Origin: Leptobrachium leishanense
Lineage: Eukaryota; Chordata; Amphibia; Anura; Megophryidae
Direction: 5' to 3'
Assembly (NCBI GenBank): GCA_009667805.1
Contig: CM019075.1
Location: forward strand, 13,531,738 to 13,595,737
DNA: 64,000 bases
Shown here: one piece after another, positions 11,745 to 50,605 of the stretch
How the letters are laid out: the number at the start of each line of letters is the position of its first letter
Numbering within the stretch: position 1 is the stretch's first letter
Program-made: the position numbers and the translations under genes
The notes under the pieces: generated by a model
The model's database searches: none
Seen by the model: only the letters and a program-made list of their open reading frames with translations
Told to the model about the DNA's origin: nothing

Positions 11745-12195
11745 GGGGGCATATAGCCATGAGAGGTGGGGGGCAAATATCCGAGAGGTGGGGGGCAAAT
11801 ATCCATGAGCTGGGGCATATATCCATGAGAGGTGGGGGCCAAATATCCACGAGCTGGGGCAGTATCCACGTGCTGGGGCAATATCCACGAGCTGGGGCAG
11901 TATCCACGTGCTGGGGCAGTATCCACGAGCTGGGGCAGTATATCCACGAGCTGGGGCAGTATATCCACGTGCTGGGGCATATATCCATGTGCTTGGGCAG
12001 TATCCACGTGCTGGGGCATATATCCACGTGCTGGGGCAGTATATCCACGTGCTGGGGCAGTATATCCACGTGCTGGGGCATATATCCACGAGCTGGGGCA
12101 TATATCCACGAGCTGGGGCATATATCCACGAGCTGGGGCAGTATATCCATGAGCTGGGGCAGTATATCCATGAGCTGGGGCAGTATATCCACAAT
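11745..12195. repeat. 20-23-bp minisatellite 'ggggcatatatccacgagct'
   Basis: About twenty units vary between 'ggggcatatatccacg', 'ggggcagtatccacg' and 'ggggcagtatatccacg', followed by 'agct' or 'tgct'. All frames on both strands read open as a side effect. Confidence 0.9.
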
Positions 12196-12954: not shown

Positions 12955-13125
12955 AGAATCCTGACACACTGCACATTACAGAGCTCCATAGAAATAAAAC
13001 TCCAAGTAATGTGCAGAGTGCATGAGCGTATTACAGAGCTGCACAGCAAAAACCCTCACAGTAATGTGCAGTGTGTATGAGTGTATCACAGAGCTCCACA
13101 GCAATAAAACCCACAGTAATGTGCA
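12955..13125. repeat. 55-58-bp minisatellite, 3 units
   Basis: Three units of the same 'acagagctccacagcaataaa' family seen at 9893-10400, 17701-18056 and 33905-34265. Confidence 0.75.
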
Positions 13126-13590
13126 GCTCACACATGGATATATATTGCCTCAGCAGCTCACACATGGATATATATTTCCCCCAGCAGCTCAAACATGGAT
13201 ATATATTGACCCCAGTAGCTCAAACACGGATATATATTGCCCCCAGTAGCTCACACATTGATATATATTGCCCCAGCTCACATATGGATATATAGTGCCC
13301 CAGCTCACACATGGATGTGTATTGCCCCAGCTCACACATGGATGTGTATTGCCCCTGCTCAAACATGGATGTATAGTGCCCCAGCTCACACATGGATGTA
13401 TATTGCCCAGCTCACACATGGATGTATAGTGCCCAGCTCACACGTGGATGTATAGTGCACAGCTCACACATGGATGTATATTGCCCAGCTCACACATGGA
13501 TGTATATTGCCCAGCTCACACATGGATGTATATTGCCCAGCTCACACATGGATGCATAATGGCCAGCTCACACATGGATATATACTGACC
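13126..13590. repeat. 24-29-bp minisatellite 'cagctcacacatggatgtat'
   Basis: About seventeen units of variable length share 'gcccagctcacacatggat'. The core is the reverse complement of the core of the array at 11745-12195. Confidence 0.9.
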
Positions 13591-13647
13591 CCAGCAGCGA
13601 TTTTGTAAGGGACCACGGCGGCGCACTAAGAAACCGCCTCATCGGCG

Positions 13648-16701: not shown

Positions 16702-16725
16702 ATAGTGTACAAACCACACATACAC

Positions 16726-17525
16726 AGAGCAGATTACAAAATACACATATACGGAGCACACCGATATATACAGAGCACATACAAAAAAAATACACATATA
16801 CGGAGCACACGATATATACGGAGCACATACAAAATAAATACACATATTCGGAGCACACCGATATATACAGAGCACATACAAAAAAAATACACATATACGG
16901 AGTACACCGATATATGCACAGCACATACAAAAAAATATACACATATACGGAGCACACCGATATATGCACAGCACATACAAAAAAATATACACATATACGG
17001 AGCACACCGATATATACAGAGAACATACAAAATACACATATACGGAGCACACAGATATATACAGAGCACATACAAAATACACATATACGGAGCACACAGA
17101 TATATACAGAGCACATACAAAATACACATATACGGAGCACACAGATATATACAGAGCACATACAAAATACACATATACGGAGCACACAGATATATACAGA
17201 GCACATACAAAATACACATATACGGAGCACACAAATATATACAGAACACACATATACAGAGCACACAGATATATACAGAGCACATACAAAATACACATAT
17301 ACAGAGCACACAGATATATACAGAGCACATACAAAATACACATATACAGAGCACACAGATATATACAGAGCACATACAAAATACACATATACGGAGTACA
17401 CAGATTTATACAGAGCACATACAAAATACACATATACAGAGCACACAGATATATACAGAGCACATACAAAATACAAATATGCAGAGCACACAGATATATA
17501 CAGAGCACAGATATACACAGAGAGC
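16726..17525. repeat. 45-bp minisatellite
   Basis: About 17 units contain 'tacacatatacggagcacac' and 'agatatatacagagcacata'. The unit is 15 codons long, so frames of 200-370 codons are open on both strands. The composition (Y/I/H/T or C/V/Y repeats) follows from the repeat and does not indicate genes. Confidence 0.92.
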
Positions 17526-20647: not shown

Positions 20648-23600
20648 TCATGTTCCTCTCAGTCTGTGACATTCTGCGACGTATTGGGCAGATATTTTCA
20701 CCGCCGGCTCCTCTTCTCCCAGTATGATGTGGAGTTTCCTCGTCTCTTCTATAGAGGTGAAGTCCGGGATGAGAGCGGAGAGTCTCTGGAAGTGAGTTTC
20801 CCTCAGTGATGAGTACTTGGGGCACTGTAGGAGGAAGTGGACCTCATCTTCCAGGGCCTCCTGGTCACAATGCTGGCACAGTCTATTCTCCCTGGGATTG
20901 TAGGTCTGTCTATGCCGCCCTGATTCAATTTCCAGGCTGTGGGCGCTCAGTCTGTACCGGCTCAGGATCTGTCTGTCCTTGGGGTCTTGTAGTACCTCCA
21001 GGTATGGGGCCAGTTTGTATTCCCTCTGTAAGGATTGGTAAATGGTGAGTTTCTGGGAGTTTGCTATATCATGTCTCCATTCTCTGATATAGTTTTCCCT
21101 GGAATCGTTAATTAGGGCCTTTATTTGATATTTTGTCAGGTTGCCTTCATGGGCGCTTTGGATGATCAGGGTGGATATGAGTTGTTGCAGCCCACATGGT
21201 TTTGGATGGTCCTTGTTGGCCAGTAGGGCTTTATGGTGGTATGAGTTGAGGCTGCTGATGTTTAGATGGTCCCAGTATGATAGCGCCCTCTTCTGTACTG
21301 CAAGAAGTAAGGGGAGTCTGCCCAGCTCGGCCCGGCAAGCATTGTTAGAGGTGCTCCGATGGACTTGGAGGAGGTGCTTGCAGAATTCCAGATGGAATAT
21401 TTCTGTTGGGCTGGTGTCCCATTTGGGTTGGTCAGGGTAGGTGATGGGGCCCCATACTTCACTGCCATAAAGGAGGATTGGAGCGATGACGCTATCAAAG
21501 ATTTTAAGCCAGACTCTTACAAGCGGTTTTAGTTTGTAGAGGTTTCTCCTGATGGCATAGAAGGTTCTACGCGCCTTGTCTCTTAGGGCCTCTATGGCTG
21601 GTTTGAAACTTCCCGATCGGTTTGTTTCTAGGCCGAGGTATGTGTAGCTGTTGGCTTCATCAAGAGTGCAGTCATTAAGTGTGAAAGAGGAACTCTTGGT
21701 TTTTGCGTTCTTCCTTTGGAAAACCATGACCTTTGTTTTCTTTTGGTTGATGGGTAGTGCCCATGCCGCACTGTATTTTTCCAGCACTTCCAGGCTGTCT
21801 TGTAGACCTCTCTCTGTTGGTGACAGTAATAGGAGGTCATCTGCATACAACAGGAACTTCACCTCGGTGTCATGTAGAGTTAGTCCTGGTGCTGAGGAGG
21901 ATTCTAGAGCTTCAGCCAGTCCATTGATGTAGATGTTAAAGAGGGTTGGACTTAGGTTGCAGCCTTGTCTGACTCCACGAGCCTGCCGGAAATACTCTGT
22001 TCTCTTCCCATTCACCTTTATGCTGCAGAAGTTCTCATTATATGAGCTCTTGATGACGTCATATGTTTTCCCTCCTATTCCACTCTCCAGTAGTTTGAGG
22101 AAAAAGCCTGGGTGCCACACTGAGTCAAAGGCCTTCTTAAAGTCCACAAAGCAAGCAAATATTTTCCCATGTTTTGTATTGTGGACATGGTCCTTGATGA
22201 GACTGTGCAGGGTGTAGATGTGATCTGTAGTGCGATGGTTTGGCACGAACCCCGCTTGGCTTCTGTTGAGGACGTTATGCTGTGTCAGGAAGCTGAGGAT
22301 TCTTTTGTTCTGGATGCTATTGAACAGTTTTCCCAGTGTGCTGCTGACACATATCCCTCTGTAGTTGGCTGGATCATATTGGTCTCCACTCTTATGGATG
22401 GGTGTTATGAGGCCTTGGTTCCATACTTGAGGGTAGAATCCAACGCTCAGGACCAGGTTGAAAACTTTACATATTGCGGCGTGTACTTCTGGAGAGCCGT
22501 GTTTAATCATCTCTGGAAGAATTCCATCCATCCCGCTGGCTTTTTTACTTCGCAGATCTTGAATTTTTTCTGCTACTTCTTGGGGTGTAATGGGTGTATC
22601 TAACGGGTTTTGGAAATCTTTGATTTTTTCCTCCAGTTCATGTAGTCTTCTGATGATGTGTTCCTGTTCCCCAGTTAGCTCCTCTTTGGGAATGTCTTTG
22701 TACAGGCTCTTGAAGTAGTTGAGCCAGATGTTGCCATTTTGGATGTGGAGGTGTTTTTTCTTGGATCCTGAGCCGATTTGACTCCAGGTTTCCCAGAAAG
22801 AGTTATCCTGAAGAGCCTCTTCCAGTTGTTGAAGGTTTTGGGAGATGAGGTTTTGTTTTTTCTTTTTGATCATTTGTTTATAGTTTTTCTGCAGGACACC
22901 ATGTGTGATCCTCAGGTCAATGTTGTCAGGGTCTCTGTGTTTTTTATTTGAGACTGTTTGCAGGTTGTTTCTTAGTGTTCTGCATTCTTTGTCAAACCAT
23001 TTATTGGGTTGTTTATTGGATGATTTCTTGAAGTTGACTTTTTTAATGTTGGAGGTCTCTGCGATGGTGTGTAGTATGCTGTGGAGGTCCTTTGCTGCTT
23101 GGTTCACCCCCTGGGGACTTAGTACATAGGTATGGTTTTGAAAGACTGTTAACTGATCTTTGATGTCGGGTCTGTTGATGACCTCTCTGTAGGCTATGGT
23201 AGAGTGTCTGGTCCATTTGAACGATGGTGGGAGGTTGTACAGTCCGCTCTGATGGGGTTTTAAGGATGGTTTATTTGAGGATTTAATATAAAGCAGTAGT
23301 TGGCTGTGGTCTGACAGGTGTGTTTGTGAGGTGACGGTGAAGGCGTTGATGTGAGTGGAGTAAATATCCGTGATTGCATAGTCGACCACACTGTTTCCTA
23401 CATGGGAGCTTAATGTATACCTTCCCAGAGAGTCTCCCTTGGTGCGGCCATTAAGGATGTAAAGCCCGAGACTCCGACACAAATTCAGCAATTTTCTTCC
23501 ACTCTTGTTGGTTGTATTGTCATAGCTGTTTCTTTGCACCTGTATTGACTCCTGACAGTAGTTTGCGGCTCCCAAAATGTATGTGTTCCCATCTGAGGTC

Positions 23601-24106
23601 ACATAGTCCTTTTCTCTTCCTGTCCTGGCATTGAGGTCTCCATAGAGAAGCACGTGTCCTAGGGACTGGAAGTGGGAGGCCTCACTCTGTACCACCTCAT
23701 AGGTGTCTGTTTTGGAGTATGGAGACTCTGGTGGTGCAATGTAAGCCGCACATAGGAAGATGTCTGACTGAGAGGCGAGGATGGAGCTACTTATTTTTAT
23801 CCAGATGTGGCTGTCTCCTTTCTTGATTGCTTTGATGTTCTCGTGTAGCTCCTCCTTATACCAGATTAATATTCATCCTGAATGGCGACCCTGTTTGATG
23901 CTTTTATCCTTCTGGGCGGGCACAGAAAATTCTCTGTAGCCCACAGGTGTTTGTGGGTCATCCTGTGCCCGGCTCCATGTTTCCATCAGGATTTGTATGT
24001 CCACGTTCTGCAGTCTATGTTTGAAGTCTGGATCATTTACTTTGGATCCAAAGGCTGAAGCATTCAGACCCTGAATGTTCCAGCTACTGATTGTTAGTGA
24101 TGTCAT
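20648..24106 (-). CDS. LINE ORF2: APE endonuclease-reverse transcriptase (one in-frame stop)
   Basis: This would nick target DNA and copy the element RNA into the genome. The frame of 1152 codons runs from ATG at 24106 and is open except for a TGA at codon 78 (23875-23873), probably a point mutation. Visible in order: APE endonuclease motifs SWNIQGL (about residue 8) and METW (about 41), YGDLNAR (about 157) and LSDHSQL (about 230); reverse transcriptase with KKASGMDGI, NYRGI, VDFKKAFDSV, ARGVRQGCNLSP and the catalytic YADD (about 785); a C-terminal Cys/His cluster CQHC...H...C near residue 1090. The active-site boxes look intact. The length is normal for I/Jockey-type ORF2. ORF1 ends 88 bp upstream. 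Confidence 0.92.
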
Positions 24107-24194: not shown

Positions 24195-24839
24195 TCACAT
24201 TAATTTGTTGTATAGTGTGCCGAGGAGGGTCCGTATCTCCTCCAAGTCTCTGTTCTGTGGAGGACTTGATGTCCATCTTGGGGCGGGTGGTTTCCGCCAT
24301 TCCTGCCATCTGTTTTGTCCTGTTCTTGGTTTAAATGTGGTGTTCTTGTCTTGGTGTGGTGCGGTTTGAGGTCGTCTTGTGGTGGTTGTTGTTGTGTTAG
24401 TTTGGGTTTGGTTTGTGCCAGATTCTGGGATATGGGTTCTGTTCAGTACAATGTCTTTAAATTCTCTTGCCAGGTGACTCACCCCTTGTTTGTTGAGGTG
24501 TTTGTTATCGTAGAGGTGTTCAGGGGTTATGGAAGGGTGTTGGGCCAGATGAATGTTGGGCTTTGAGCTAGTTTTAGCCGCCAGTTCTGTGTTGATGTTC
24601 TGGATGATGTGGTTCGATATGTCCTTCCTTGGAAGTAGACAGGATAGGATTATTTTGGAGTGGGGGAACTTTTGCTGTGCAGTGTCTGTTAGTTGTGACA
24701 GTTTGTCTGCAATGCCTTTCTGTTCTGTCTGAATGTTGTTCGTACCTGTGTGTATGATGATTTGTTTGGGGTTTGTGAAGTATGGATTTGTGAGGACTTC
24801 CATTGTCTGTTCAATGGTAGCACAATGGATTTTGGTGAC
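24195..24839 (-). CDS. LINE ORF1 fragment with SGNH-esterase-like domain
   Basis: The open frame continues upstream of the ATG at 24803 to a TGA at 24842-24840. It shows IIIHTGTNNIQ, matching SGNH-hydrolase block III (Gly-x-Asn), and about 90 residues later DNKHLNKQGVSHLA, matching the block V Asp-x-x-His pair. The block I GDS serine region would lie further upstream and is not present in this frame, so the domain is truncated. The C-terminal third is Thr/Pro/Arg-rich and low in complexity. ORF1 proteins with an esterase domain are known from CR1, L2 and related LINEs, where a role in RNA or membrane handling is proposed but unsettled. The direct link to the ORF2 on the same strand supports a single element. 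Confidence 0.75.
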   Translation of the reverse strand, partial: VTKIHCATIEQTMEVLTNPYFTNPKQIIIHTGTNNIQTEQKGIADKLSQLTDTAQQKFPHSKIILSCLLPRKDISNHIIQNINTELAAKTSSKPNIHLAQHPSITPEHLYDNKHLNKQGVSHLAREFKDIVLNRTHIPESGTNQTQTNTTTTTTRRPQTAPHQDKNTTFKPRTGQNRWQEWRKPPAPRWTSSPPQNRDLEEIRTLLGTLYNKLM

Positions 24840-27190: not shown

Positions 27191-27475
27191 ATAGATATAT
27201 ACCAGGATGACAACATTCAACCTTTCTAAGCATAGCGGGCGGGTGATTCTCAAGTCAAAGAAATGCATACTTACCAGGAGGAGAGCACAACAACTAATAT
27301 ATTTCAAGAATTTAACAGTAGCTCATACATTTAAAGATTTTAACCCGTTAAATATTCAAACAACTCTTAAAGGGCCACTACCACCAAAAAATGAAATGTC
27401 CTTATTGTCTTTATTTATGTTGCTGATATCTTACATGTGATTTGTTTTTCTCTTGTTTGTTTAGTTAAGAAAATA

Positions 27476-27975
27476 TGTTCCTCTATATGTGACTGGGCAC
27501 ATCCATTGTGTGATATTTTCCTCTATATGTGACTGGGCACATCCATTGTGTGATATTTTCCTCTATATGTGTCACTGGGTGCATCCATTGTGTGATATTT
27601 TCCTCTATATGTGTCACTGGGTGCATCCATTGTGTGATATTTTCCTCTATATGTGTGACTGGGCACATCCATTGTGTGATATTTTCCTCTATATGTGTCA
27701 CTGGGTGCATCCATTGTGTGATATTTTCCTCTATATGTGTCACTGGGTGCATCCATTGTGTGATATTTTCCTCTATATGTGTCACTGGGTGCATCCATTG
27801 TGTGATATTTTCCTCTATATGTGTCACTGGGTGCATCCATTGTGTGATATTTTCCTCTATATGTATCACTGGATGCATCCATTGTGTGATATTTTCCTCT
27901 ATATGTGTCACTGGGTGCATCCATTGTGTAATAGTTTCCTCTATATATGTCACTGGGTGCATCCATTGTGTGACA
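27476..27975. repeat. 42-bp minisatellite
   Basis: About twelve units of 'cactgggtgcatccattgtg' + 'tgatattttcctctatatgtg'. Forty-two is a multiple of three, so all the long frames here are repeat artefacts. Confidence 0.92.
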
Positions 27976-28470
27976 TTTTGTATCTTTCCATCACTTGCTC
28001 CTCACTGTGTGTCTTTGGCCATAGAATGGAGTAAATGGGTCAGTCACCGACTCACATCATTGTATTGTGTGGGTTGTATTCAAAGGAAATCACCAGGGGG
28101 TAGATTAGTAATATTTTAAGCTCCCTGTTTTATCTCATTCAGCTGCCAGCTCTTATTTCTGGTAGCCTAGAGAACACAATACACCCTCTGCTACCTTATC
28201 TAAACATTCTCTCCGCCACCTCATTAACTGTTAAATGCTGTATAAGACACAAAGTAAAACTCACCATAATATTTTGGTAAATGTTGCATCATGGAAAAAA
28301 TCCCCAAAATGGAAACAGACTAAAACCTATATTTATTTTTCCTTTTTACATGCAACTACTTCAAATAAAGAAATAATCTCAGCAGCGTGTGTTTTATAAT
28401 GTGTTTTATAATATGTTTTTTTGTAATGCACAAGTAATCTAGTTACATCTTATGTACGTGGTAGCGTGCC

Positions 28471-31317: not shown

Positions 31318-31965
31318 GTGATATCTGTATGTGCTGCATAATGCCTGCGTATGTTAATTACAGCAACACCTTGTTTCTGTATGTGCTGCATAATGCCGGT
31401 GTATGGCAATTACAGCAACACCTTGTATCTGTATGTGCTGCATAATGCATGTGTATGGCAATTACAGCAACACCTTGTATCTGTATGTGCTGCATAATGC
31501 CTGTGTATGTCAATTACAGCAACACCTTGTATCTGTATGTGCTGTATAATGCCTGTGTATGGCAATTACAGCAACACCTTGTATCTGTATGTGCTGCATA
31601 ATGCCTGTGTATGTCAATTACAGCAACACCTTGTATCTGTATGTGCTGTATAATGCCTGTGTATGGCAATTACAGCAACACCTTGTATCTGTATGTGCTG
31701 CATAATGCCTGTGTATGTCAATTACAGCAACACCTCGTATCTGTACGTGCTGCATAATGCCTGTGTATGGCAATTACAGCAACACCTTGTATCTGTATGT
31801 GCTGCATAATGCCTGTGTGTGGCAATTACAGCAACACCTTGTATCTGTATGTGCCGCATAATGCCTGTGTATGGCAATTACAGCAACACCTTGTATCTGT
31901 ATGTGCCACATAATGCTGTGTATGGCAATTACAGCAACACCTTGTATCTGTATGTGCCGCACAAT
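31318..31965. repeat. 52-bp minisatellite
   Basis: About twelve units of 'caattacagcaacaccttgt' + 'atctgtatgtgctgcataat' + 'gcctgtgtatgg'. In the middle, 'tatggcaatt' and 'tatgtcaatt' variants alternate, together with 'gctgcata'/'gctgtata', hinting at a 104-bp higher-order unit. Confidence 0.92.
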
Positions 31966-32346
31966 GATCCGGTTTTGAGGGGTACAGAGAGTGCCGGCTG
32001 TTGAAAGTCATGTACCAAGCACTGCAGCCTGGGTGTCACCAGCTTCAATATTTCATCATTCCTTTCCCATGAGTTGTTGCCCCACTCTATACTTTTCTAA
32101 TGTGATTTATTTAGTGATTACAATGTTCTTCAATCCAGTAATTATTAGATGTATGGTATGTTGTTGAAGAAATCTGCTTTGCCACGGCCGCCCTGACCGC
32201 AATGAACCCAAACTATCTCTGTAATACCATTGAGCGTGACGCTGTGCCTGTAGGTGGATGGCCTTTCTTCTTGCGGTTTAAATTCAGTCCCACCAATTGC
32301 ATCCTGTACATAAAATTCACTTTTCTCATCCAACTTTCTTCACTAT

Positions 32347-40155: not shown

Positions 40156-40792
40156 CCGATCTAAGCCTTTTTTTTTTCGTTACTTCATATTCCAAATGAT
40201 TGGTCATTGTTATTTATGTCATTCGTTGATGATTGCCCATAATTTTGGTTTTGGCCCGTCCACTCCTATATACCAGTAACACGTTTCTATACAGCTTTTA
40301 TGTGGTTTCCAACATGGCTGGACTTACATCAACACAGGAGCCAGTAAAAAGAAAACATGGGAGCAAAGTACATATTTCAGGAGTTGGACAATGTTTTGTG
40401 TAGAATAATCTAAAAACTGTAAAAGGCAGAGGTAACTTCTTGAGGTCTGCAGCGTTTTACAAGACCTTCATTGACCTTTCTCTGAATCTTTGACCTGTAG
40501 CATACTTTGACATGTCAGCAAGTTTATTATGTCCCTGCTAGAGACACCACAACACAATTGTGTTCTTCATTTTTGTATTATGTCTTTAAAATCAAATGTG
40601 ATTAATTGAAAATAAAAAAGTTAAAAGTCTCATAATTCAAATTTATTAGTGAAAATCTGTAGAGCCCCTAAACCTAATCAACACAATACTGATTCATGTG
40701 ATCGTCTAAGCAAGAAAACAAACCATTTTTCTAACTGTATTGTAATTGACATACGTAAATTGTGAGCACAGTGCATTTTTGTACATATAATC

Positions 40793-40798
40793 TTTATT
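40793..40798 (-). terminator. Poly(A) signal AATAAA of the S100-fused gene
   Basis: AATAAA on the minus strand, about 98 bp after the stop codon, predicts cleavage near 40775 and a very short 3' UTR. Confidence 0.75.
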
Positions 40799-40895
40799 AT
40801 TCAATTATATGTTCTCATAAGATGCAGGCTCACAGCATGATAATAAGACTATTAAAATACGTTATCATTGCATTCTATGCAGAGGACGAGGTGGG

Positions 40896-42860
40896 TTAAT
40901 CTTCCCAAGGGTTCTTCTTCTGGCTGGAGAAGTGGTACTGGTACTGGTAGAACTGTTGCTGTTGGTGTTGCTGTGTCTGCTGAGGTTGCTGCGTTGGATT
41001 TTGATCAGCTGGATTTTGTTCTTGTTTGTTTTGACTATAGGGAGGCGGCAGTGGGGAAAATTGATATTTCTGGCCCTGCTCCTCTTCAGGTTTTTGAGGT
41101 GGATGTACGGCCTGTTGATAAAACCGTTGAGGTTGGTGTGATTGCTGGGTTTGATCCTTTTCTTCTTGCTTATTGGCAGGCGTAGGTGTAACTTTCTCTT
41201 GTTGTGGTGTTTGATCTTTACACTGGGGCTCTACAGAAGGCTTGGGAGCAACACAACCTGATTGGGCTTCGTCTTTACTTTGAGGTTCTACTGGAGGCCT
41301 TAGTGAGACATGGACTGGCTGAGCTCCTTGGTCTTTGCTTTGAGGCTCTATGGGAGGTTTCGGTGAGACATGGACTGGTTGAGCTCCTTGGTCTTTGCTT
41401 TGGGGAGCTATGGGAGGTGTTGGTGAGACATGGACTGGTTGAGCTCCTTGGTCTGTGCATTGGGGTGCTATGGGAGGTCTTGCCGAGACATGGGCTGGTT
41501 TAGCTCCTTGGTCTGTGCATTGGGGTGCTATGGGAGGTGTTGGCGAGACATGGGCTGGTTTAGCTCCTTGGTCTGTGCATTGGGGTGCTATGGGAGGTGT
41601 TGGCGAGACATGGGCTGGTTTAGCTCCTTGGTCTGTGCATTTGGGTGCTATGGGAGGTGTTGGTGAGACATGGGCTGGTTTAGCTCCTTGGTCTGTGCAT
41701 TGGGGTGCTATGGGAGGTGTTGGCGAGACATGGGCTGGTTTAGCTCCTTGGTCTGTGCATTTGGGTGCTATGGGAGGTGTTGGCGAGACATGGGCTGGTT
41801 TAGCTCCTTGGTCTGTGCATTGGGGTGCTATGGGAGGTGTTGGCGAGACATGGGCTGGTTTAGCTCCTTGGTCTGTGCATTTGGGTGCTATGGGAGGTGT
41901 TGGCGAGACATGGGCTGGTTTAGCTCCTTGGTCTGTGCATTGGGGTGCTATGGGAGGTGTTGGCGAGACATGGGCTGGTTTAGCTCCTTGGTCTGTGCAT
42001 TGGGGCTCTGTGGGAGGTTTTGGTGAGACATGGACTAGTTGAGCTCCTTGGTCTTTGCTCTGGGGCTCTATGGGAGGTGTTGGTGAGACATGGACTGGTT
42101 GGGCTCCTTGATCTTTGCTTTGGGGCGCTACACAAGGTTTCGGTGTTACTTTGTCAGGCTGAGGCTCTTGGTCTTTGTGTTTTGGGTCCAAATAAGGTTT
42201 TGGTGTTACACAATCCAGTCGTGATCCTTGATCTTTGTTTCGGGAATCTGTTGGTGGTTTGGAAGCTACACATTCTGGATGAGATGCTTGGCCTTCATCC
42301 TTTTGCTCTTTTGTTATTGTTGGCTTGCACTTGCCTGAATCTCCTGGTCCTTGGGTTGCATCATGTTGTTCTTTGTACTGATCCTTCACCTTATCATCTT
42401 TTGCTGGTGGTTGGTCCTGTTGCAGGCTATATTTTGGAGGCTTTTCCTGTCCTCCTCTTCGGGGATCTGTTTGTGTCGAGCTCTGCACTGTTTCAACTTC
42501 TTTACACTTGTTGTCGTCATCCTTAGACACATCCACACCACTTCGATTTGACCCTACAGAAACTTTGGTACTTTGGTCTGTAGGTTGCTCCTGTGTGCTC
42601 TGGTCACATTTTGGATACACTGGGCTCTGGTAATACTTAGGTGGAGGGTCTGGATTGCTTCCTACTGGCTTTACATCAGGTGTTTGTGTGCCCCCTGGTT
42701 TTTGCTGACACGACGTATCCTCTGTCGCGTGCACCACTTTGTAGTAAGCTTTAAATACTTTACAAAGAAGATCGCAAAACTCATTGAAGTCAATCTCTCC
42801 GTCATTATTGTCATCGAGGATTTTAAGTAAGGTAGAGATGGTCTGGGGATCCTTTGGGTT
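40896..42860 (-). CDS. Exon 3 of the S100-fused gene: EF-hand 2, repeats and tail
   Basis: The acceptor is 'taatccttcttccag' just upstream of 42860, and the first codons encode [15 protein letters not shown]. The exon is one uninterrupted frame of 654 codons to the stop at 40898-40896. In S100-fused genes the last exon holds the second EF-hand and the whole repeat region, as here. The S100 part ends at about residue 87 (KVFKAYYK). A spacer with several 'KPP' and Lys-Asp-Gln motifs leads into the repeats. Confidence 0.9.
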   Translation of the reverse strand, partial: NPKDPQTISTLLKILDDNNDGEIDFNEFCDLLCKVFKAYYKVVHATEDTSCQQKPGGTQTPDVKPVGSNPDPPPKYYQSPVYPKCDQSTQEQPTDQSTKVSVGSNRSGVDVSKDDDNKCKEVETVQSSTQTDPRRGGQEKPPKYSLQQDQPPAKDDKVKDQYKEQHDATQGPGDSGKCKPTITKEQKDEGQASHPECVASKPPTDSRNKDQGSRLDCVTPKPYLDPKHKDQEPQPDKVTPKPCVAPQSKDQGAQPVHVSPTPPIEPQSKDQGAQLVHVSPKPPTEPQCTDQGAKPAHVSPTPPIAPQCTDQGAKPAHVSPTPPIAPKCTDQGAKPAHVSPTPPIAPQCTDQGAKPAHVSPTPPIAPKCTDQGAKPAHVSPTPPIAPQCTDQGAKPAHVSPTPPIAPKCTDQGAKPAHVSPTPPIAPQCTDQGAKPAHVSPTPPIAPQCTDQGAKPAHVSARPPIAPQCTDQGAQPVHVSPTPPIAPQSKDQGAQPVHVSPKPPIEPQSKDQGAQPVHVSLRPPVEPQSKDEAQSGCVAPKPSVEPQCKDQTPQQEKVTPTPANKQEEKDQTQQSHQPQRFYQQAVHPPQKPEEEQGQKYQFSPLPPPYSQNKQEQNPADQNPTQQPQQTQQHQQQQFYQYQYHFSSQKKNPWED

Positions 42861-45800
42861 CTGGAAGAAGGATTAAAGAGACACCCATTTAATGAAGTCA
42901 CATGATGTTTTGATGGATTATTCAGTCATAATGACACCATGCAGAATATTCCCAAATTAAACTTTTCTCGAATATACGTATAAACATATTATATAATGAA
43001 ATCTAATTTTATCTTATTTTTACAGCTTAGTAAAATGGTCAACAGTGGCTGTTCTATGATTCCTGACGACCCCCTAATGGAGAGCTGGATAAAAATCCAT
43101 CAGAAAAACGGGAAAAGAGAGTAAAAGTGAGTGTTTTTTTATTTCATGGAGACCCAACTTTATCTTATCATCTTCTTCCAACTCTCTGTGCAAAATTATT
43201 ATGGCCATTGTGTCCATTCATGATGTAAAGCAGCAGCTAGAACATGTGTCCCTGGGTGTCATCAACCACTCAAGGTTTGGAGACTCCATATTTGGTTGAA
43301 CAACAGATCGGTCCAATTTTAAATGCAGCGGGCTATAAAAAGGTACTTAATTTACTATATATCATTTTTATGTCAGCTAGAGTCTGTATGACACTTCAGA
43401 TATACTAGCTAGTGCAAAACCACCAATATTTTGTACGTCTTCATGGTAAAAGAAATGAATTGATTGAGCATATAAAAACGATTGATCTGTTTTTTCCATC
43501 AAGACCATTAATTGTCTCCATCCCTAAAAGAGTGTGTTTATATATACAGTTTATATACACACATACCGGGGTCAAGTCCTAAAAAATTAAGTTTGGGAAC
43601 TCACCAAGATTTGTCTCCCAATTAGCACTTATCATCTTGCACTTAACATAAACACACCCTCAGAAGTGATATATTTATGTGTATATATATATATATAATG
43701 TGGATTTTAGCATAAATATATGATAAATCGTATATTTATTGTGACTTAACAGGGAAAGATATGATTGAACACCTGAATACAAGCTTTACAGCAGTGTGTG
43801 GGACCAATGGAAACTCAGTTCCTTCTGCAAACATAGTGGAGGAACTGTGATCCTATGCGTTCCCCTGGACTTGACCCCTGGATATATATAGATATCTATA
43901 GATATAGACATTCAGATGCACACGGAGACTTAATTGCAGAATAAAAAAATGTATTGCATGGATCAACGTTTCAGTCTCGTCCGGGACTTTTTTCAAGACT
44001 GTTCTTGAGAAAGTTCCCGTAAGGGACTGAAGCGTCGAACCATGCAATCATTTTTTTTTTATAATTATATATATTTTTTTATAATTAAGTTTTAACATTT
44101 TTTATTCTGCATTCAAGTCTTCGCGTGCATCTGGATTTTCTTCTACATACATAACTATGCAGCCAGAGTTGCACCGAAGCATATATATTTGTTTAGTTAT
44201 TGTATACTGAGTGCAGGGTTATATATTATTATTATTATTCTTTATTTATAAAGCGCCAGCATATTCCGCAGCGCTGTACCATAAGCACAGTATAGACAGG
44301 GTTACAATACATTGAACAACATTTGACAAACAGTACAGGAGGAGATGAGGGCCCTATTCCCGTAGGAACTCACAATCTAGGAGGGTTGGGGTTGGAAACA
44401 GGAGGAGAGGACTGTAAGGTGAGAGTGATTGATGGTTGCGTCAGTGAGTTGGGTGGTAGGCTTCCCTAAATAGGAATGTTTTAAGGGAGCGTTTGAAGGA
44501 AGAGAAGTTAGGGGACAGTCTGGCAGTACGAGGGAGAGCGTTCCAGAGAGTGGGGGCTGCGCGTGAGAAATCCTGCAGTCTATCATGGGAAGAGGTGATG
44601 CGGGGAGAAGCTAGGCGCAGGTCGCTGTTTGACCTTAGGGAGCGGGCTGGGGTGTATTTGGTGATTAGTGAGGACAGGTAGTGGGGAGCTGAGTTAGTGA
44701 GGGTTTTGTAGGTAAGGATAAGGATTTTGAACTTAATTCTGCAGTGGATGGGGAGCCAGTGAAGGGACTCGCAGAGGGGAGCGGCAGAGACAGAGCGGCG
44801 GGTGAGGTGAATTAGCCTGGCGGAGGCATTCAGGATGGATTGTAGGGGGGAGAGGCGGGACAGAGGGAGGCCAGATAAGAGATTATTGCAATAGTCAAGT
44901 CGGGAGATTACCAGGGCGTGTATGAGTTGTTTTGTGGTGACAGCGGTAAGAAATGGCCGAATTCTGGAAATATTACGCAGTTGGTATCGGCAGGAGGAGG
45001 AAAGAGACTTGATGTGGGGGATGAAGGAAAGAGCAGAGTCAAGTGTAACTCCAAGACAGCGAACTTGGTTTGATGGGGAGATGGTGATACCCTCCACCGT
45101 GATAGAGAAGTCAGGAGGTGGGGAGGCATTGGAGGGAGGAATAAGTAGGAGCTCAGTCTTTGACATGTTGATCTTTAGGTGGTGGGAGGCCATCCAGGAG
45201 CAGATGCCAGATAAACAGTCACTGACTTTTGAAAGGACAGGGGGAGAGAGATCAGGGGTAGAGAGGTAGATCTGAGTGTCATCAGCGTAGAGGTGGTAAT
45301 TAAAGCCAAAGCTGTTGATGATTTTGCCCAGGGAGGAGGTGTAGATGGAAAAGAGCAGAGGACCAAGGACAGAGCCTTGAGGTACACCAACAGATAGAGG
45401 CAATGAGGAGGAGGAGTCACCAGCAAAGGACACACAGAAGGACCTGTTGGATAAATAGGAGTCAACCCAAGCAAGTGCAGTGTCACCGAGACCCAGAGAG
45501 TTGAGGGTCTGTAGAAGGAGGGGGTGGTCAACAGTGTCAAAAGCAGCCGAGAGGTCAAGCAGGATGAGAATAGAATAGTGGCCGTGTTTTTTAGCAGTTT
45601 TATATATATATTTTGCTTTCTGTACTACACTGTTAAGGCTTGGTCTGTATCTATTACATGCTATTGTATAAGCAATCAAAGTAACGCTGTAACATAAAAT
45701 AACATGGAGCAGCATAGTCCTATAGGAAGTTAATGAAACTGTACAAAGGTTAGAATTCCATTAAACATCTGATTATATATATATATATAATTTCTATATA

Positions 45801-46610
45801 AACCCCCAGAAAAATTCATACACCTATAGCTGTTCTAGATAATTCTTTCTTGATGAATATACATGTTGCGATTGGTTCAGGAATTGACACATAATTGCAA
45901 ATGAGTCATTTTTTCTCTCAAATGAAACCATTAGCGACCAGGTTTACTTTCCCAGAAATGTCCTATCGGGGTGGATATAGCAATGGTCATAAAGATCAAT
46001 GCTGATGATCTATCACTAGCCGCAGCTTACCCGACTCCGGCGCTGAAGGCACCTCCATGCTCGTCTTCCGTTGGCATCACTTATTGAGGGTCGTCACTCA
46101 GTGCCCTCAGCAATGACGCTGACTTTCTGACTTGGCAGTCAGCGCATCGGGAGTCCCTCAGCTGCCTGGAATGAGCAGAGGGATGTCCTGGAGGACAGAT
46201 CTTTCCCTCAGGCAGCATATCAAAGGAGGTGATTGACAGCAAAACTTTGACAGGGAATATTTCCAAATATTGATGTTCCTGTATACGTGTGTTTAGCAGA
46301 AAACCACATATAAAAGAGTGATTCCCTGTCAAAAGAGCCCAACTTGTGGTGGGCATGATGAGTGCACTTTAACACTTGCATATATACGACATCATAAGGG
46401 AACACTCAGTAATGTAGTAGATAAACATATTAACATATAATTACGTGTTATTGTATACTTTATCATTGTTACCTTGATCACATCAGAAAATTCATTCTGA
46501 ATGAGCTGGTTTAATTCCGCCTTGTTCAGCTTCTGGTGGCTGCAGTCCTTCTGGGCGTAATTATTGAACACCACCATGATGTCTTCCATGGCATAAAGGA
46601 TCTTTCCCAT
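40896..46610 (-). CDS. S100-fused-type (cornulin/trichohyalin-like) epidermal protein, 700 aa, spliced
   Basis: Coding exons 46610-46473 and 42860-40896 join in phase 0 to give 700 codons. Residues 1-46 form the S100 pseudo-EF-hand ([16 protein letters not shown]). Residues 62-73 are a canonical calcium loop, [12 protein letters not shown], with all ligand positions filled. Then come a Pro/Lys/Gln/Asp-rich linker, 14 tandem 20-residue repeats ([16 protein letters not shown] type) and a Gln-rich tail ending NPWED. There is no signal peptide or membrane segment. The S100 head + repetitive tail + exon layout is that of filaggrin, trichohyalin and cornulin, which bind calcium and are cross-linked by transglutaminase into the cornified envelope. 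The many Gln and Lys residues would suit that, but the role is inferred. The tail is unlike any one member, so no symbol is given. Confidence 0.9.
41280..42118 (-). repeat. 60-bp coding repeats (14 units)
   Basis: Units of 60 bp encode 20 residues. The central units are almost identical and alternate between endings APQ and APK (plus-strand 'tggggtgct' versus 'ttgggtgct', for example at 41641, 41761 and 41881), giving a 120-bp higher-order unit. Outer units ([12 protein letters not shown] type) are more diverged. The opposite strand is also open through the array by chance. Confidence 0.95.
43905..44135. mobile_element. Foldback MITE in intron 2
   Basis: 'cagatgcacacggagactta' faces 'aagtcttcgcgtgcatctg'. 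The centre has 'cgtttcagtctcgtccggga' facing 'cccgtaagggactgaagcgt'. It has the same general design as the hairpin at 26700-26935. Confidence 0.65.
44226..45600 (-). mobile_element. L2-clade LINE, 5'-truncated, in intron 2
   Basis: On the minus strand the copy runs from RT motif A to the 3' UTR and a TAA-rich tail at 44226-44240. It lies on the same strand as the host gene, inside its second intron. It matches the copy at 1-634 very closely. Confidence 0.92.
44441..45600 (-). pseudogene. L2 reverse transcriptase fragment, open frame
   Basis: About 385 codons of L2 ORF2 without a stop: [17 protein letters not shown] (motif A), [14 protein letters not shown] (motif B), [13 protein letters not shown] (catalytic YADD), [10 protein letters not shown], then the L2 C-terminal blocks [18 protein letters not shown] and FREAYH to the stop. 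The endonuclease and the N-terminal RT part are missing through 5' truncation, so it is not functional alone. The intact frame indicates recent insertion. Confidence 0.9.
46473..46610 (-). CDS. Exon 2 of the S100-fused gene: start codon and EF-hand 1
   Basis: The full exon is about 46630-46473. The acceptor is 'caatttttctccag' before 46630, and the start ATG at 46610 sits in 'caatcatgg'. It encodes exactly 46 codons ([20 protein letters not shown] to FSDVIK) and ends at the donor AAG|GTAACA (46472-46471 = GT). The helix-loop-helix with the 14-residue pseudo-EF loop is the S100 signature. A single S100 coding exon of about 46 codons ending in phase 0 matches the family. Confidence 0.9.
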
Positions 46611-47686
46611 GATTGCAGAAGGAGTGTGATCTGGAGAAAAATTGAATAATATATAAGAATATAGGGTGTATGGTAAATCATGCTTTTAAGAGTTACCCTC
46701 AACAGGAACGACCGTCATATTCGACACCCTGGGTTTTGGGTGGCAAAGTGACCCTAACAAATTATGTTTTTCAAAACTGTCAATGCGGAACGGATCAGCA
46801 TCTGAAATTGGGGGCTGTGCGTCTGCTCGGGGCAAAAATATCGGAAAGGAGTCCAGGAGATGAGCACATTCTCCACTGACCAAACCAAGAGGTCCCTGAC
46901 TGAGGTGAGACTCGTCTCACTGCAGAAGCTATGAGCCTGAGAGATGCCTGAGAGATGCCGAAAAGGACATTTTGTTTCTACCCTCTCTATCTACATATCC
47001 GACGCTCCATATTTCAAATTAATTTTTAAGGAAGAAATTCCCGTAACTGTGCAGTAAATTAACCTGCTGGACAAGTCACAAGAAAGAATTTGAAGCCGGT
47101 CCTCTTCACGTATCCTCCAGGATTCTAGGAGTGATTCAGATGTTGTCAAGACTTTTAATTCCCCATATAAAGCTATTCACTCAATAATTTTATGTAAGAC
47201 CTTTAAGCCTTGGAGTTGTAACCCGCCTATCCCCAATTAAATCCATAGCATGGATTCTATATGCTTCACGGCCATAAACCCCATTTAGAAAACGAAACAG
47301 CAGAGATATAGGTTTGGAACCCATATATACATGTTTGGGGTTTTTCTGAAACATTAAATTTGGTTTAACAATTTATAAAACCTTTTGAGCTGACGCGTTT
47401 TACTTGTGCTATATATGAAGGTTAACAGCATTAGGGAGTTGTTGTTTTTTTCATCCTTTCCAACGATATAGCCAAACCTGTTAGCAATCCGTATTACCAT
47501 AAAGAGAGCATCTGCTAAATCAAAGCCCCATCACGTCTGTGGTAGATCTGGAAGTATTTGCACCCCCAGAACGATGCATAAAACATTTCCCCTCTATTTG
47601 TATTAAGTCCAGCATTTTAGATATTTAGCATTGAGGCTTGGACACCTCATAAAGAGACCCAAGTGTTAGGCAACCCCTGGACTTAC

Positions 47687-47720
47687 CTCGTCCACTAAGG
47701 TGCCGATGGAGAAAGAAGAA
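47687..47720 (-). other. Non-coding exon 1 of the S100-fused gene (predicted)
   Basis: A strong donor GACGAG|GTAAGT lies at 47687/47686, about 65 bp downstream of a TATA box. S100 and S100-fused genes typically begin with a short non-coding exon. The transcription start near 47720 is inferred from TATA spacing, giving an exon of roughly 34 bp and an intron 1 of 1056 bp. Confidence 0.7.
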
Positions 47721-47744
47721 CTGAACAGATTGGAAAAACTTTAC

Positions 47745-47751
47745 ATTTATA
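47745..47751 (-). promoter_or_regulatory. TATA box of the S100-fused gene
   Basis: TATAAAT on the minus strand in 'gctcctataaatgtaaag', about 31 bp before the predicted start and about 65 bp before the exon 1 donor. Confidence 0.7.
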
Positions 47752-47778
47752 GGAGCTCCGTGTCCTAATTTCCGATAG

Positions 47779-49499: not shown

Positions 49500-50605
49500 T
49501 AGGGGTGTAACTACCAGGGGTGCAGCGGGTGCCAGTGCACCCGGGCCCCTGAGTCCGGGGGCCCACAACCGGGTGGGTGGGGGTCCCGGACTGGCCCTGC
49601 TTGCCACACACAGGGGTCAGGTACCTGGTCTCCCGTTTGATCGGCAGCGTGTGGGATCAAACTTCCACACGCTGCACCAGAGGTAAAGGCCCTGCCGGGG
49701 GTAGAGGAGGAGGAAGAAGAGGACAGCTGCTCACATGGGGACGTGGTGGCCCCACCCCTTCCCCCTCCACAGCCATGCAAAGCAGAGCCTCTCCTGCTGT
49801 GCCGGAAGTGTCCAGCACGTGCAGGGAGGGGAAGTGGAGAGAGTGGAGACCATACTTACCTATGGTAAGTATGTAACAAGCTGGGGTGGGGTGTTTGTGT
49901 GTGTGTGAGTGAGCAGAGGATGTGTGTGTGTTTGCAGGGCCACCATCAAGGGGTACAAGCATTAATATGGCATGGGGCCCTGTGGAGGGGGGTTCCCTGG
50001 CTGGCTAATTACTGGGGGTCTGATACTGGCTAAATTCTGGGGTTCTGATACTGGCCAATTACTGGGGGTCTGATACTGGGTAATTACTGGGGGTCTCTGA
50101 TACTGGCTAATTACTGGGGGTCTGATACTGGCTAATTACTGGGGATCTGATACTGGCTAATTACTGGGGATCTGATACTGGCTAATTACTGGGGATCTGA
50201 TACTGGCTAATTACTGGGGGTCTCTGATACTGGCTAATTACTGGGGGCCTGATACTGGCTAATTACTGGGGTCTCTGATACTGGCTAATTACTGGGGGTC
50301 TCTGATACTGGTTAATTACTGGGGGTTCTGATCCAGGCTAATTACTGGGTGCCTGATACTGGCTAATTACTGGGGTCTGATACTGGCTAATTACTGTGGG
50401 TCTCTGATACTGGCTAATTACTGGGTTCTGATACTGGGGGTCTGATATCTGGGGCTCACGCGAGGGTGGGTCTTGAAGGCGCGGGGCGTACTGGTACACC
50501 CCGCTGACTTCAATGGCCCGCTTCGGCCCCTCCCCACAGCCGACGAGGGGGGGGGCCTTCATGGATTTTTGCACCAGGGCCCTGAGGTTTCTAGTTACGC
50601 CTCTG
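49500..50605. mobile_element. Non-autonomous hAT ('caggggcgtaacta' family), copy 2
   Basis: Left end 'taggggtgtaactacc', right end 'tttctagttacgcctctg', flanked by a perfect 8-bp duplication GGTGAGAC (49492-49499, 50606-50613). The interior is GC-rich at both ends, with a 25-bp minisatellite between. Confidence 0.93.
49975..50450. repeat. 25-bp minisatellite 'ctggctaattactgggggtc'
   Basis: About eighteen units of 'ctgatactggctaattactg' with a variable G run and an extra 'tc'. Confidence 0.92.

Follow-up and report, generated by a model that had tools for sequence, protein, structure and literature searches.

The window analysed here is a 64,000-nt stretch of the 92-Mb contig C13 (CM019075.1, positions 13,531,738 to 13,595,737) of the frog Leptobrachium leishanense. 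On its minus strand it carries a predicted, unbroken gene, SFTP_A, which very probably encodes a member of the filaggrin family of S100-fused-type proteins (SFTPs) within an amphibian epidermal differentiation complex (EDC) cluster, and whose product would presumably act in the cornified layer. Coordinates given without a contig prefix are window positions. A TATA box (TATAAAT, 47751-47745) read from the sequence is situated 65 nt before the donor of the noncoding exon 1 (47687..47720). The 3′ end of this exon lies at 47687, where GAG is followed by the donor GTAAGT; its 5′ end is estimated to lie some 30 nt downstream of the TATA box. Exon 2 (46473..46630) opens with 20 nt of 5′ untranslated region, after which precisely 46 codons, starting with the ATG at 46610, encode the S100 pseudo-EF-hand; the next bases after 46473 are GTAACA. 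After an intron of 3.6 kb (intron 2, 42861..46472) the coding part of exon 3 (40896..42860) begins at 42860, preceded by a pyrimidine tract and CAG. Its 654 open codons specify the second EF-hand and a 613-residue tail, and end with the stop codon TAA (40898-40896). The canonical EF-hand loop (42780..42815) is the sole match of the EF-loop pattern in the six frames of the window, and a polyadenylation signal AATAAA is found at 40793..40798. Every element listed in the original prediction, from the TATA box and the GTAAGT of exon 1 to the tail and the AATAAA, was thus present on the minus strand.

The predicted product comprises 700 residues, an 87-residue head and the tail. Unlike S100A proteins, which end soon after the second EF-hand, SFTP_A runs 613 codons past the head, and these 1839 nt exceed the 400 nt of coding sequence beyond the S100 domain that, with other domains lacking, are used to define SFTPs (PMC9365767). 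A profile of 19 reference heads (7 human SFTPs and 12 S100 proteins), made without the window, picked just exon 2 (E 1.4e-11) and exon 3 (1.4e-10) among the 2082 open reading frames (ORFs) of the window, the runner-up having an E value of 0.43; no additional S100 exon was found among these ORFs. Exon 2 matches the Pfam S_100 model with 49 bits, and in exon 3 no domain besides weak EF-hands was detected with Pfam at E values up to 0.01.

Genome searches covering 3.54 Gb placed SFTP_A in a cluster of three genes. The SFTP_A head retrieved SFTP_A, SFTP_B, and SFTP_C; the SFTP_C head retrieved SFTP_C and SFTP_A, and the SFTP_B head SFTP_B and SFTP_A. SFTP_B (C13:13608659-13623525, exon 3 13614991-13608659, 2157 residues) and SFTP_C (C13:13480822-13498717, exon 3 13487889-13480822, 2402 residues) are 29 and 74 kb away, respectively, on the same strand and with the same exon plan. 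Their exon 3 frames are open over 2111 (SFTP_B) and 2356 codons (SFTP_C), and the 46-codon exon 2 is common to all three genes. A TAG inside some of the paralogue matches most likely represents the acceptor at the exon edge. A fourth SFTP was not retrieved by the three head queries, the exons behind many S_100 matches on other contigs not having been examined; the Pfam S_100 search of the genome gave 34 matches, many of them on contigs other than C13. Two groups of such matches, at C1:502.4-503.2 Mb (10 matches) and 74.8-75.0 Mb (5 matches), lie outside the EDC and perhaps reflect a lineage expansion.

The order on C13 is S100A10, S100A11-like exons for two S100 domains, SFTP_C, SFTP_A, SFTP_B, an unassigned S100, an S100A13/A16-like exon, S100A13, and S100A1 (opposite strand). 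The flanking genes were named after the best match in the PDB with chimeras set aside, and the label S100A13/A16-like is unsure. S100A10 was identified with 143 bits (next different natural S100, 84) and S100A11 with 105.6 bits. The adjoining exons for a second S100 domain presumably belong to the same gene; S100A11 genes with two S100 domains have been described in X. tropicalis and Rhinatrema (PMC9365767). S100A13 was found with 45.7 bits and S100A1 with 58 bits, the latter ranked behind a two-domain S100A4 chimera. Judged by gene content and order, the locus is an EDC in which the SFTPs stand between S100A genes. The expected synteny with S100A genes is therefore borne out by the S100A10/A11-like and S100A13/A1-like flanks, whereas the expected neighbourhood of a PGLYRP gene is not: PF01510 had three matches in the genome (E up to 0.001), on C3 and C9, and none on C13, and PGLYRP motif scans of the window and of the 215-kb locus yielded only matches judged to be due to chance. 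The lack of PGLYRP matches on C13 is relevant to the proposed origin of EDC genes from a fusion of S100A and PGLYRP (PMC4245816).

The head of SFTP_A scored higher with trichohyalin, hornerin, repetin, cornulin, filaggrin, and filaggrin-2, that is with six of the seven human SFTPs, than with any of the 12 S100 proteins; the seventh, TCHHL1, had the lowest score of all 19 reference heads. In a tree the SFTP_A head and the seven SFTPs were separated from the 12 S100 proteins with a support of 93/85. When the heads of SFTP_B and SFTP_C were included, the three heads formed one group (93/89), which joined the human SFTPs against the S100 proteins at 96/88. The head would accordingly be placed with the SFTPs rather than with S100A proteins, weakly so by the profile margin given below. 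A protein database search with the SFTP_A head returned one candidate and none at or below 0.01; the database seemingly holds no vertebrate relatives.

The tail of SFTP_A is rich in Pro (18.4%), Gln (14.2%), and Lys (8.8%) and has 19 Cys; the last 611 residues comprise 87 Gln, 54 Lys, and the 19 Cys. It includes a tandem array (41305..42130, minus strand, period 60 bp, 13.8 copies, 94% matches) which encodes 15 consecutive in-phase units of 20 residues. One further unit was found, and Cys is present in 12 of the 16 units. The array looks young and homogenised, apparently always in whole codons, and unequal exchange in whole codons likely lengthens and shortens it. The tails of the paralogues have a different make-up. 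The SFTP_B tail (2068 residues, 377 Gln, 333 Lys) is rich in Lys, Gln, and Thr and built on a 47-residue repeat. The SFTP_C tail (2313 residues) has repeat lags of 104, 12, and 4 and contains 659 Gln, 3 Cys, only 1.1% charged residues, and 5 Lys, compared with about 90 expected from the base make-up. Heads and exon plan thus persist in neighbouring paralogues whose tails are wholly unlike. At the C terminus, each of the three proteins has a PW no more than 10-11 residues from its end, which may be a conserved element; the joint chance that all three carry a Trp among their 13 final residues is 0.0002 by shuffling, observation and figure both being post hoc. SFTP_B ends in WPWQ, in agreement with the WPxQ in the C-terminal motif of amniote EDC proteins, which was likewise spotted after the fact.

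Upstream of SFTP_A, the block AATTAGGACAC (47760..47770, minus strand) starts 19 nt before the TATA box, and an exact copy starts 18 nt upstream of the TATAAAT of SFTP_C, whose TATA box and donor had been listed before the block was spotted. Two of the three occurrences of this 11-mer in the 215 kb are those at SFTP_A and SFTP_C. The alignment of the two promoters was matched by none of 1000 shuffles over the promoter stretch and by 7 of 300 over 400 bases. The block common to SFTP_A and SFTP_C supports both exon 1 predictions and suggests common control. No such site was found within the 16.5 kb examined upstream of exon 2 of SFTP_B. The distance of 65 nt between the TATA box and the donor of SFTP_A is within the 60-90 nt applied as a rule to amniote SEDC genes, the EDC genes with a single coding exon (PMC4245816). 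TATA-to-donor pairs alone were at chance level (4 in the locus, 0-4 in 12 shuffles), and the assignment of exon 1 therefore rests on the distance, the donor, and the block together. A further TATA-to-GGTAAG pair was noticed at C13:13520435 (minus strand). The region of its donor, CCTTAGTGG..GAGGTAAG, is a match to exon 1 of SFTP_A (none of 1000 shuffles was as good), but no fitting second exon was found for it.

A number of observations weigh against the reading of SFTP_A as an SFTP of this kind. Concerning the head, the SFTP model exceeded the S100 model by just 3.6 bits, compared with 32-52 bits for the human SFTPs, and in the PDB two S100 chimeras and S100Z (56 bits) ranked above filaggrin (53.7). 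The SFTP_C head barely prefers SFTPs (FLG2 141, S100B 139). The trees also separate the seven human SFTPs from the window head together with the S100 proteins (47/80; 89/91 with three heads), and S100G is placed weakly on the SFTP side in both trees (66/71 and 72/66). Of the 19 reference heads, filaggrin was fully checked against 4pcw, and S100P and S100A4 in part. Exon 3 taken alone gave Pfam EF-hand matches below the curated cut-offs. As to the tail, no sequence likeness was detectable among the three tails, and no sign of purifying selection was seen among the 15 repeat units, in which 18 synonymous and 46 nonsynonymous codon differences compare with 47:127 possible. The amniote motif QQxKQPSQWPxQxxK is absent from the C terminus of SFTP_A, where 1409 of 2000 shuffles reached an equal score. 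Finally, a pattern of AATTAGGACAC and TATAAAT at 4-12 nt spacing, drawn from SFTP_A and SFTP_C themselves, had one other match in the 3.54 Gb, so that the genome-wide total of three (two by construction) equals the three matches of the backwards control; as this control is equally rare, the pattern is simply rare. Given the 3.6-bit margin and the PDB ranking, the head alone is suggestive, and it is the locus that decides.

We considered whether an S100 gene could have been fused to a repeat exon independently and in amphibians alone, the likeness to amniote SFTPs being due to convergence. The nearly equidistant head, three tails with nothing in common, and the separate grouping of the paralogous heads and of the human SFTPs would fit this explanation. 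It has to account, however, for the joining of both groups in the tree with all three heads, for the identical 46-codon exon 2 plan in all three genes, and for their place between S100A10/A11-like and S100A13/A1-like genes. In addition, a published phylogeny supports a common origin for the SFTPs of amphibians and those of amniotes (PMC9365767). We regard an independent fusion as unlikely. The original prediction had allowed for an early or independent origin on the premise that SFTPs are mainly an amniote feature. This premise matches the view of 2014 (PMC4245816), which was later revised: SFTPs are reported in every main group of land vertebrates, frogs among them, though not in fish, with two genes in X. 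tropicalis and three in axolotl (PMC9365767). Its claim that the Pro-rich tail sets the gene apart from other S100-fused proteins also fails, as a bias for Pro, Gln, and Lys had already been published for amphibian SFTPs (PMC9365767, PMC8348711). Since such proteins were in print, SFTP_A is not an independent invention; with its head grouping with human SFTPs and its syntenic locus, little is left of the proposed origin. The classification as an S100-fused-type gene itself stands, on account of exon plan, head tree, and locus.

A second alternative is that SFTP_A is a decaying or never-expressed SFTP pseudogene, whose frame is open by chance and by recent amplification of the repeat. SFTP_A is known as a predicted gene only, and its repeat units lack the mark of purifying selection. 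Yet the 654 open codons of exon 3 compare with a maximum of 308 when the exon was shuffled 1000 times (order 1), splice and poly(A) signals are in place, the upstream block is common to SFTP_C, and the paralogues have open frames as well. A pseudogene is therefore improbable, slightly more so than an independent fusion.

That an SPRR- or involucrin-like SEDC gene merely lies beside an unrelated S100 exon and was joined to it only on paper, an idea to which the Pro/Gln-rich tail of short units and the existence of SEDC genes in caecilians (PMC9365767) might lend some colour, is very improbable, because the second EF-hand and the tail form one uninterrupted frame in one exon and exon 2 is in phase with exon 3 after 46 codons, likewise in both paralogues. 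No convincing SEDC gene was found in 302 kb of the locus (13450001-13753700), which is not proof of absence. Biased candidate ORFs numbered 13 in the window when no acceptor was required, 6 in the 215 kb under a strict acceptor rule, and 18 under a laxer rule in 13450001-13753700. By eye they turned out to be frames of minisatellites, exon 3 of an SFTP read in another or an antisense frame, exon 2 of SFTP_C, and a few short unconvincing ORFs. The SFTPs, the two S100A11-like domains, the lack of a convincing SEDC gene in these 302 kb and of a PGLYRP match on C13 together point to the frog-salamander branch of amphibians and, salamander genomes being far larger than 3.5 Gb, likely to a frog. The frog skin peptide family PF03032 had no match, in a search whose control gave none either.

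Read as an SFTP of the EDC, SFTP_A can be compared with published systems. It has the exon plan, S100 head, repetitive tail, and EDC location of human filaggrin, trichohyalin, repetin, and cornulin; the filaggrin tail, however, is biased for Arg (10.8%) and His (10.2%) rather than for Pro, Gln, and Lys (PMC8348711). The Pro/Gln/Lys-rich tail resembles SPRR and involucrin and would be similarly suitable for transglutaminase, whereas SEDC genes differ from SFTP_A in lacking an S100 head and in having a single coding exon. Four SFTPs with 11-18% Lys and aliphatic indices of 16-62 are given for X. laevis (PMC8348711). SFTP1.L and SFTP1.S have 480-570 aa, 11-15% Lys, and an index of 50-62, compared with 700 aa, 9.1%, and 44.7 in SFTP_A; their Arg bias is 0.012-0.036 and that of SFTP_A 0.111, Lys exceeding Arg in both. 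By composition and length, the only features compared, SFTP_A is thus longer and richer in Arg than SFTP1, and it has the 20-residue Cys repeat. SFTP2.L and SFTP2.S (2220-3075 aa, 17-18% Lys, index 16-27) resemble SFTP_B (2157 aa, 15.7%, 31), and SFTP_C (0.5% Lys, aliphatic index 98.7) is unlike either type of that paper. In the open-access papers and passages covered, no description of a lysine-free SFTP was found.

The product of SFTP_A is likely to toughen the outer skin layer. The promoter would drive expression specifically in skin and late in keratinocyte differentiation, the paired EF-hand head would dimerise and bind Ca2+ as differentiation raises its level, and the disordered Pro-rich tail would present rows of Gln, Lys, and Cys as sites of cross-linking by transglutaminase and of disulfide bonding. 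Within the cluster SFTP_B would supply Lys and Gln, and SFTP_C almost exclusively Gln. With such a division, and 659 Gln against 5 Lys in SFTP_C, the three products would be cross-linked with each other or with keratins, not alone. As background, SFTP expression in a caecilian is reported to be predominant in skin, and cross-linking of caecilian EDC proteins by transglutaminase was deduced from their Gln and Lys content (PMC9365767). TGM genes are recorded in X. tropicalis (PMC11152450), amphibian skin has a single cornified layer (PMC11816140), and the composition of frog SFTPs was argued not to be the one that keratohyalin granules would call for (PMC8348711).

We tentatively propose, as a possibility that may well prove wrong, that the three products form a three-part copolymer, in which SFTP_B contributes Lys and Gln, SFTP_A adds Cys, and SFTP_C serves as Gln donor, with SFTP_A and SFTP_C under one common promoter block; the diversity that amniotes possess in SEDC-type genes would then be reached by SFTP tails alone. 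In such a copolymer SFTP_C could be cross-linked only to partners, as it has practically no Lys. SEDC genes are reported in caecilians and not in frogs (PMC9365767), and the nearly Lys-free SFTP_C and the block common to SFTP_A and SFTP_C bear on how an envelope forms in frog skin without reported SEDC genes. The locus represents a syntenic amphibian EDC with three SFTPs, in which a nearly Lys-free protein is encoded beside a Lys-rich one.

Intron 2 of SFTP_A contains a reverse-transcriptase fragment, an ORF of the long interspersed nuclear element (LINE) type (44441..45760, minus strand, RVT_1 4.6e-28), which is not part of the SFTP_A product; the sequence following this ORF resembles the terminal part of an L2 element of frogs. 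A LINE-like stretch was noticed at 20648-23872 and 24195-24839 (minus strand), with a reverse-transcriptase ORF of 1074 codons and an upstream ORF of 214 codons that has a GDSL-like Pfam match below the cut-off. Among 18 ORFs of the window, Pfam recognised reverse transcriptase twice and, in each case below the cut-off, the exon 3 EF-hands and weak matches to GDSL, DNA_pol3_delta, and DMRT5_DMB; no other family was recognised. Rfam and tRNA searches of the window gave no matches, and of nine pattern matches in viral contigs none was confirmed. Long minisatellites, whose basic units measure 21-52 bp, are located at 11745-12192, 13124-13595, 16720-17517, 27473-27979, 31322-31966, and 50001-50437; several of them have more than one open frame and thereby look like repetitive proteins.

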